A stretch of 64,000 bases of DNA. Origin: Buttiauxella selenatireducens (lineage in GTDB: Bacteria > Pseudomonadota > Gammaproteobacteria > Enterobacterales > Enterobacteriaceae). Within the stretch, counting starts at the first letter, position 1. Each line of letters starts with the position of its first letter. Where the stretch lies: NCBI RefSeq assembly GCF_031432975.1, contig NZ_CP133838.1, positions 1,178,001-1,242,000 on the forward strand, given 5' to 3'. The position numbers and the translations under genes are program-made. Below are positions 20,932 through 22,460 of this stretch, one piece after another. The notes under the pieces were generated by a model. That model was not told where the DNA came from, ran no database searches, and was given only the letters and a program-made list of their open reading frames with translations.

Positions 20932-20974
20932 TTGATCAGTTATTCAATTAGAATTACTGTATATAAATACAGTG
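20932..20974 (+). promoter_or_regulatory. SOS promoter with LexA box
   Basis: TACTGTATATAAATACAGTG (20955-20974) matches the LexA consensus at 18 of 20 positions, including the invariant CTG-N10-CAG. It overlies the -10 of a sigma70 promoter read as TTGATC (20932)-17 bases-TACTGT (20955). LexA binding would therefore occlude RNA polymerase, and the downstream genes should be induced by DNA damage. Confidence 0.9.
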
Positions 20975-20991
20975 CATTTTAAGGGGGAGTT

Positions 20992-21231
20992 ATGCCTCGT
21001 AAATCTGATATCGAGCAGGCGTTTCGTAACGCTATCAAACATGAACAGAGTGGGCGGCGCACAGTCACCACAGTTGATTTCGTCAAGGAACTGGCGAAGC
21101 TGAACTGGTACTGGAGTCAGAGGGAAGCGAACGTGTGGATTGAATATTATGTCACGACGTTCAAAGACATCTCTGCCGTGGAAGGCGAGGGCAGAACCTT
21201 CATGTTGTACAACTCTGATGGGTGGATTTAG
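20992..21231 (+). CDS. SOS-regulated 79-aa protein, function unknown
   Basis: First gene after the LexA box, with a GGGGGAG ribosome site directly upstream. The small, mostly helical protein (MPRKSDIEQAFRNAIKHEQS) has a basic N-terminal half and an aromatic, acidic C-terminal half (LNWYWSQREANVWIEYYVTT). It is not DinI or ImpC by sequence. The basic-to-acidic layout and the TVDFVKELAKLNW helix could suit DNA or protein binding, but I recognise no family. It ends three bases before the UmuD'-like gene, so the two form one SOS operon at the prophage edge. Confidence 0.75.
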   Translation: MPRKSDIEQAFRNAIKHEQSGRRTVTTVDFVKELAKLNWYWSQREANVWIEYYVTTFKDISAVEGEGRTFMLYNSDGWI

Positions 21232-21233
21232 TC

Positions 21234-21557
21234 ATGGGATTTCCTTCGCCAGCTGCTGATTACGTCGCCCGTCCTCTCGATCTTAATGATATCTGCGGTG
21301 TCACGCCGGGTGATTCGGTGCTTGTCACAACTGAGAATGGTTATGTTCTGCTCAGTAAAACCAGAAAACCCATGCAGGGTGACACGGTACTGATTCAGTT
21401 CTGTGGAAACTCTCAGTTCGCACGAATTCAGGGTAATGCTTTCATTACCGAAGATGGTGAGGCGATAGAGGGCGAAGCACTGGATGATGTGGTGATTATC
21501 GGCAAGGTCACGAAAACGATTTTATCGGTGCTGCAAGACGACAGGCCTGTCATCTAA
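21234..21557 (+). CDS. UmuD'-like (HumD-type) protein
   Basis: 107 residues, starting at ATG 21234 with GGTGGA about seven bases upstream. Its first residues, MGFPSPAADYVARPLDLN, copy host UmuD from exactly the RecA-stimulated cleavage point (Cys24-Gly25, then GFPSPAADYV). The protein is thus made directly in the processed, mutagenically active form, as reported for HumD of phage P1. About 13 residues of the UmuD core are missing. A PGDSV segment may hold the Ser60 equivalent, but the Lys97 region reads SQFARIQ, so protease activity is unlikely. It may pair with host UmuC to form a Pol V-like complex or modulate it. It is coupled to the LexA-controlled gene upstream. Confidence 0.82.
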   Translation: MGFPSPAADYVARPLDLNDICGVTPGDSVLVTTENGYVLLSKTRKPMQGDTVLIQFCGNSQFARIQGNAFITEDGEAIEGEALDDVVIIGKVTKTILSVLQDDRPVI

Positions 21558-22241
21558 CTATGCCGCTGGATTGCTTATCGGTTCAATGAGTTCCGGGCTC
21601 TGGTTCTTCACATTCCCAACGGCTCGCGTTACCGGGTGCCAGGTAAATTCATCGGCTGGCACCGCAGCGTCATGAGCCAGTTCGCTGGCTTGTGCCCCAG
21701 TAGTTTCCGGATCCATCCATTCCAGTGCTGCAGCAGGTGAGAAAACTAAAGGTCTGCGGTCGTGAATATCGACCAAGCCGTGATCGGCGGCTGCCGTCAC
21801 TATCAAAAATCCCTCTGCTTCATCTCCCACATCAAACGGCTGCTTGCCAATCGCGGCAAAGAACAGTGGCTTCCTGTCCTTCCGGTAGATGTAATACGGC
21901 TGCTTTTTGTCTCCTTCCTTTTTCCACTCATACCAACCATCAGCAAACACAATCGCCCGGCCATGATTCCACAGCGGCTTAAACATCCGGCTGGTGGCCG
22001 CAGTTTCTACCCTGGCATTTATCAGTGGTGCTTTGTCCCACCAACCAGGCGCGTATGACCAGATCACGGGATCGAGATGAAGGGAGTCTTCTCTGTTATT
22101 AAGGAGAAGAACTTTGGTGCCAGGCGCAACATTGAACCTGCCAATCGGTTCGGGGTCATAGGGGATACTGCTCTCGGCTTCTTCCAGAAGAAACTCGAGA
22201 TAGTCGTCGCGAGATTTAACTTGAGTGAATCTTCCACACAT
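21558..22241 (-). CDS. SRAP-domain abasic-site protein (YedK/HMCES family)
   Basis: 227 residues. The start is fixed at MCGRF, because Cys2 becomes the N-terminal residue after Met removal and forms the thiazolidine link to abasic sites in single-stranded DNA; GGAGG lies seven bases upstream. An upstream in-frame start would bury this Cys. Other active-site positions are visible: Asn in INARVET, Glu in DGWYEW and His in DIHDRRP. The protein shields abasic sites at stalled forks from error-prone processing. It converges on the SOS operon with no spacer between stop codons. It is probably prophage cargo, a second copy in addition to any chromosomal yedK. Confidence 0.93.
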   Translation of the reverse strand: MCGRFTQVKSRDDYLEFLLEEAESSIPYDPEPIGRFNVAPGTKVLLLNNREDSLHLDPVIWSYAPGWWDKAPLINARVETAATSRMFKPLWNHGRAIVFADGWYEWKKEGDKKQPYYIYRKDRKPLFFAAIGKQPFDVGDEAEGFLIVTAAADHGLVDIHDRRPLVFSPAAALEWMDPETTGAQASELAHDAAVPADEFTWHPVTRAVGNVKNQSPELIEPISNPAA

Positions 22242-22394
22242 GGACACCTCCGGTAGAACAGAAAGTATAGAACCCATATGCTGACGAGTTAGCCACTACA
22301 GTGTAATATGCACGCCAGTCGTTGATGGGGTAGTTACTGTGGAGTGTCCACCGCTGTGTCCATCAAAAAGAATTAATCCGCATAGCGAGCATAA

Positions 22395-22460
22395 AAAACC
22401 ATATTTATGAAGAATATAAGAAACTTTTCTATTATTGCCCACATCGACCACGGCAAATCG
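22395..22460 (+). other. Probable prophage right attachment junction at the lepA 5' end
   Basis: Phage-type genes stop at 22241 and lepA starts at 22407, whereas in E. coli rseC lies directly upstream of lepA. Gifsy-1 of Salmonella is known to insert at the 5' end of lepA. The fifth lepA codon is AGA, a rare Arg codon, in a gene that otherwise mainly uses CGT, suggesting that the first codons come from the phage. The exact core cannot be fixed without the other junction. Confidence 0.45.

Follow-up and report, generated by a model that had tools for sequence, protein, structure and literature searches.

The right end of a prophage of Buttiauxella selenatireducens carries two small genes, here called A and B, the second of which encodes a short UmuD′-like protein, behind a promoter whose -10 is covered by a LexA box. 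The module lies in a window of 64,000 nucleotides (G000:C1:1178001-1242000) within the 5.22 Mb genome; coordinates without a prefix are those of the window, and the features are collected in Table 1. The prophage spans about 43 kb in total and has its right end inside the window, while the left-end copy of the 59-base lepA-start repeat (88%) sits beside the integrase; its attachment site at lepA is the same as that of Gifsy-1. Genes A and B are 2 bases apart, and B abuts, at 21557/21558, a convergent SRAP gene of the YedK/HMCES type, which is the last gene of the phage. No near-consensus LexA box was found ahead of the SRAP gene in a scan of the whole window with up to 3 mismatches.

Table 1. 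Features of the module, its surroundings and the prophage early region
Feature	Position	Strand	Remarks
-35 hexamer TTGATC	20932..20937	+	read from the sequence; 17 bp spacer to TACTGT 20955-20960
LexA box (SOS operator) TACTGTATATAAATACAGTG	20955..20974	+	18/20 versus the 20-mer consensus; covers the -10 hexamer TACTGT (20955-20960)
Shine-Dalgarno-like AAGGGGGAG	20981..20989	+	strong; read from the sequence
Gene A, 79 amino acids (aa), phrog_3893, predicted winged helix, putative Pol V-associated protein	20992..21231	+	open reading frame (ORF); in operons with umuD and/or umuC in L188, L089, L212, L228
Gene B, 107 aa, UmuD′-like (phrog_3469)	ATG 21234..21557	+	starts at UmuD Gly25 position; no Ser60/Lys97 dyad
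SRAP (YedK/HMCES-type) gene	21558..22277	-	PF02586 7.6e-51; left of the attR-like repeat
attR region	22389..22447	+	start of lepA; 88% 59-base repeat of G000:C1:1157254-1157312 at the left end
Second prophage LexA box	L025 5393-5412, G000:C1:1168393 onwards		early region
71-aa ORF, phrog_4847	L025 5597-5812		preceded by the second LexA box; like the Gifsy-1 antirepressor-position ORF

The LexA box and its conservation

The LexA box ahead of gene A was the sole site in the window with at most 3 mismatches, and none was found in 100 shuffles. The looser pattern CTGT-N8-ACAG with one mismatch occurred 23 times, compared with a shuffle mean of 22.1, that is, at chance level, and therefore the signal is carried only by the full palindrome. 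The promoter agrees with the sigma70 consensus hexamers at 7 of 12 bases, counted by hand. The promoter call is supported by the conserved spacing in related promoters, because TTGA lies 16-19 bp ahead of the box in 126 of 145 of them, and exactly 17 bp ahead in 85. The host's own umuDC promoter has TTGATC 18 bp ahead of its LexA box, and a 44-base stretch of it is 84% identical to the phage promoter.

Related modules were gathered by one scan of a genome collection and two scans of viral contigs, and 160 distinct ones (96 A-B, 60 B only and 4 A only) were searched for the box with up to 6 mismatches allowed, CTG and CAG fixed, and loci with the first gene less than 80 bp from an end left out. 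The data showed a LexA box in 156 of the 160, versus 12 of 979 control regions upstream of mechanically called ORFs in the same loci; the modules are distinct by sequence but not independent, and their 156 boxes comprise 71 different sequences. The consensus of these boxes is exactly TACTGTATATATATACAGTA, and the distance to the first ATG is 14-21 bp in 143 of the 156, whichever gene comes first. The box was missed in L016, L077, L148 and a second B-like ORF of L188, while the A-umuD-umuC operon of L188, counted apart, has one. In a further set, restricted to the top-scoring loci among 392 same-family genomes and without the own locus, the box was present in 28 of 29 genome loci found through A and in all three plasmid loci (31/32, the miss being L215, with a stop inside A), as well as in 25 of 29 genome loci found through B (the misses being L246, L249, L254 and L260). 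In Pantoea (L011 3805-5321), two UmuD′-like genes lie about 1 kb apart with a LexA-like site before each module, and A is present in the first. The locus L196, from a genome of the same genus as the host, matches L001 of Buttiauxella izardii at 100% identity over 3,237 bases.

By its near-consensus box over the promoter, conserved in relatives, the module is a probable member of the LexA (SOS) regulon. The preliminary description had placed an 18/20 LexA box on the -10 of a sigma70-type promoter, which the shuffles and the conservation confirm; its further claim, that the box drives a 79-residue protein and a UmuD′-like protein, is supported by conservation, homology and the structure model described below.

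The short UmuD′-like protein B and gene A

Protein B matched the PHROG family phrog_3469, "UmuD-like protein" (9.3e-39), and its AlphaFold2 model (mean confidence, pLDDT, 83.8) had UmuD′ as the best match; by full-length sequence and predicted fold B is a member of the UmuD′ superfamily. An alternative start at GTG 21222 (111 aa), as in the ORF list, is less likely because homologues begin with M-GFPSP. In the numbering of E. coli UmuD, the autoprotease dyad is Ser60/Lys97 and cleavage occurs at Gly25. When aligned to the host UmuD (C-GFPSP), B (M-GFPSP) begins at the residue after the cleavage-site cysteine, has an 11-column gap at the GDSM loop, and lacks the dyad that marks a UmuD autoprotease. 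It scored 20.7 bits against the HumD equivalog NCBIfam NF051876, for which the cut-off is 120.

These features are common to a large group of proteins. Among 71 distinct ORFs that follow A in loci found through A, 62 have GFPSP within the first residues, and the other nine are the umuC of L187, the full-length UmuD of L188 and mostly motif variants. The G[DEN]SM motif is absent from 139 of 140 B proteins, the exception being a Pseudomonas outlier. In the short forms the Ser60 column is empty (115/115) and Lys97 is never found (0/115, with Ala in 88), while the N-terminal arm residues F26-A30 are invariant in all 115; one arm set was collected by the MGFPSPAA pattern only, so that arm conservation there is biased, and the 71-ORF set obtained through A is less so. 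The long forms are mixed, with Ser60 in 5 of 25 and Lys97 in 11 of 25. In a tree, the short forms and two slightly longer relatives fall on one side of a 100/98 branch and P1 HumD, N15 gp26, HK140 gp28 and UmuD on the opposite side; this tree rests on a small number of columns, with a bootstrap that had yet to settle.

Gene A probably encodes a winged helix, as suggested by its predicted structure; LexA was not among the fold matches listed, which excludes nothing. A Pfam search listed no family for A at E<=10, and a profile of A compared with PDB sequences gave nothing credible. An identity as ImpC/DinI was rejected on the Pfam result and on an hhalign probability of 0.1 to HK140 DinI, ImpC itself not being part of the comparison. 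A defence-system label was also rejected, as neither A, B nor SRAP had a PADLOC match at E<=1. Gene A occurs on 1,090 plasmid records, and most of the 60 listed rows label it "hypothetical protein". On pKPN5047 (L229 3001-3599, IncX3), an A gene and an S24-annotated gene stand in tandem beside IS26 and a beta-lactamase gene, and on a viral contig (L187 4001-5097) gene A is followed by broken umuC pieces.

Association with umuC and a probable link to DNA polymerase V

In several relatives the module is joined to umuC, the gene of the catalytic subunit of DNA polymerase V (Pol V). The order is box, A, full umuD with GDSM, umuC in L188; box, A, short B, umuC in L089, where the end of B overlaps the start of umuC; box, short B, umuC, convergent SRAP in L086; and box, A, umuC, without an intervening UmuD gene, in L212 and L228 (Pantoea plasmid). 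The catalytic residues D6, D101 and E102 of UmuC are kept in all five polymerases, and their C-terminal tails are similar. The window module corresponds to L086 minus umuC plus A, with B running straight into SRAP. The umuC-type polymerase gene typical of umuDC and impCAB operons is absent from the window module and was seen only in some relatives; the host genome carries two umuC genes. One belongs to a second LexA-box umuD-umuC operon of the host (L027 1489-3161, G000:C1 near 1548653), in which UmuD starts without its usual N-terminal part and the C-terminal tail of UmuC is changed.

Because A and B are found in operons with umuC elsewhere, we read them as Pol V parts that now use the host UmuC. 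We consider it probable that the module is a LexA-repressed Pol V accessory operon without its own umuC, carried on a Gifsy-like prophage at lepA and lending A and B to host UmuC. Upon DNA damage, cleavage of LexA would fire the umuDC-type promoter, the derepression being suggested by sequence and conservation, and A and B would be made from one message. Since B starts at Gly25 and is without the protease dyad, it would be a UmuD′ needing no RecA-driven cleavage and could join host UmuC at once, provided that it binds UmuC. It retains the conserved N-terminal arm, positioned close to the UmuC active site in a published model. A, which travels with umuC, umuD or UmuD′-like genes, would probably be a second Pol V accessory or regulator, and the module resembles a reduced version of the A-B-umuC operons found elsewhere. 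As a net effect, translesion synthesis could start earlier or be altered when a lysogen is damaged or while the phage is growing. Two observations speak against this account: umuC is rare near the module (4/181 loci by position, two of them weak; 0/29 found through B; 1/29), and a generic sigma70 scan with a threshold of 9 bases did not list the TTGATC-17 bp-TACTGT promoter.

The alternative that A-B is a decaying, functionless remnant of a umuDC operon would fit the loss of the catalytic parts of B, the absence of umuC from the window, the broken umuC after A in L187, and the internal stops in A of L215 and in B of L260. It is very improbable, as the box, its spacing and both reading frames are conserved over many phages, genomes and plasmids, the short forms make up one large clade (100/98), and the ratio of nonsynonymous to synonymous change (dN/dS) is low in the two non-saturated pairs, synonymous change being saturated in 4 of 6 pairs.

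In the published in silico model of Pol V, one of the UmuD′ arms comes close to the active site of UmuC, whose C-terminus is placed at UmuD′ residues S36, E69, T71 and K73; the same paper cites the failure of armless UmuD′ in mutagenesis, and the 2025 modelling paper calls the structure of the UmuD′-UmuC complex unknown. By our own mapping with an offset of 24, these contacts correspond to S60, E93, T95 and K97. In short B, S60, T95 and K97 are missing from all 115 forms, and only 15 of the 115 retain E93. As the arm is kept and the contacts to the UmuC tail are largely lost, short B could fill only one of the two roles, which leads to the idea of a one-sided dimer. We put forward tentatively that short B might be a one-sided UmuD′, the half that contributes the arm when it pairs with host UmuD′ in a mixed dimer, with A as a third, previously unnamed Pol V accessory. 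It is equally tentative that, with the cleft modelled to hold the UmuC C-terminus lost, such a hybrid Pol V would need only one cleaved host UmuD subunit. If this were true, one-sided short B variants would separate the two UmuD′-UmuC contacts.

The same combination of a kept arm and fold with a lost cleft could also make B a dominant-negative or buffering UmuD′, which would pair with host UmuD or UmuD′, lower Pol V activity and shield phage and lysogen from mutation, with A assisting. The small number of modules with umuC beside them is in line with this, as is the DinI gene, annotated as a RecA-filament binder, that lies divergently beside the module in HK140 and mEp390. We regard it as unlikely, since in L089 and L086 short B shares its operon with a umuC that seems intact, which is odd for an inhibitor, and since the record of P1 HumD annotates it as helping mutagenesis, as the title of a 1999 paper by McLenigan reportedly states as well.

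If the module is a Pol V accessory operon, the mutagenic polymerase of the host is apparently supplied with damage-switched parts by temperate phages and conjugative plasmids. The protease-less, arm-keeping UmuD′ clade would then be a natural test of Pol V assembly, and gene A, mostly labelled hypothetical, gains a testable role.

Prophage induction and comparison with known systems

The preliminary description had held that the module can be expressed independently of prophage induction. The A-B promoter, having its own LexA box, should indeed be independent of the phage repressor. This prophage encodes a 137-aa repressor with a helix-turn-helix, which shares 77% identity with its Gifsy-1 LT2 counterpart and for which no S24 match was listed. 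Gifsy repressors are not cleaved but are lifted by LexA-controlled antirepressors (PMC3121763). Behind the second LexA box lies the 71-aa ORF, which over 52 residues shares 33% identity with the ORF at the antirepressor position of Gifsy-1. Given the Gifsy-like repressor and this second box, one LexA signal probably sets off both the module and prophage induction, so that independence should hold for the repressor but probably not for the trigger. Late read-through into A is also possible, as the terminators listed include none on the + strand between A and the tail gene.

The LexA-driven antirepressors of Gifsy phages (PMC3121763) raise the alternative that A, alone or together with B, acts in transcription regulation or as an antirepressor, either of the Gifsy GftA type or as a split LexA-like winged helix plus UmuD-like dimer domain, helping to induce this or other prophages. 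Besides the predicted winged helix of A, DNA methyltransferase families upstream of 7 of the 51 scanned B-only loci, and a methyltransferase-type gene shortly before the second LexA box of the own prophage, are consistent with it. However, A gave no alignment to the Gifsy-1 antirepressor-position ORF at E<=100, for which the 71-aa ORF is the better candidate in this prophage, so that A as a Gifsy antirepressor was rejected. A and B are also found with umuC, A is frequent on plasmids, and the modules are not confined to phages without an S24-type match, which makes a regulatory role improbable. The idea that the module is tied to phages without a cleavable repressor was rejected, because an S24-type match occurs in 20 of 39 carrier phage records, a self-chosen set in which records may be fragments and some matches may be stand-alone UmuD-like genes.

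The position of the module, described before as outside the usual lambdoid layout, turned out to have parallels: a UmuD-like gene follows the tail fibre in HK140 and mEp390 (before annotated attP and integrase), N15 (before sopB) and phiES15 (at the record end). A scan of upstream genes covered 69 of the 94 A-B loci, where tail-fibre families are the leading ones, and 51 of the 57 B-only loci. In Erwinia rhapontici (L015 4765-5321 and beyond), an A-B module adjoins a lepA-like 599-aa gene, as in the window.

An association of SRAP with neighbouring UmuD-UmuC genes has been published (PMC3765255). In the window SRAP likewise adjoins B, but it is convergent with a UmuD′-like gene without umuC. 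Related modules are followed by SRAP in 8 of 181 loci, some of which come from the same contigs, and in 4 of 29 genome loci found through B.

Like umuDC and impCAB, the module has a LexA box close ahead of the first ATG, the distance being 15 bp for Salmonella umuD (PMC8072944) and 21 bp for impCAB (PMC12211044), and like impCAB it has a small gene first and then a UmuD-type gene. It differs in lacking umuC and in gene A, which matches neither HK140 DinI nor any Pfam family, while ImpC, itself outside our comparison, is called DinI-like (PMC12211044). The Gifsy-1 dinI-antirepressor operon also consists of LexA-controlled small genes, on a prophage at the same lepA site, but it has other genes at another phage position. 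P1 HumD is phage-borne, starts with M-GFPSP like B and has a LexA site annotated for its gene, and in HK140 the tail fibre is followed by DinI(-), A, the UmuD-like gene and attP. In contrast to B, however, P1 HumD, N15 gp26 and HK140 gp28 are 128-129 aa long and form a separate clade, and the BLASTP alignment of P1 HumD with B covers the first 18 residues only. In the literature searched, outside which most subscription papers lie, neither the short UmuD′ clade nor gene A was found described. Place, LexA control and UmuD′ identity have precedents in N15, HK140, mEp390 and phiES15, and in the LexA-controlled humD of P1, which is the precedent that has been studied; what is added here, and did not appear in the literature searched, is the short clade without protease residues, the operons that join it to umuC, and the putative Pol V link of gene A.
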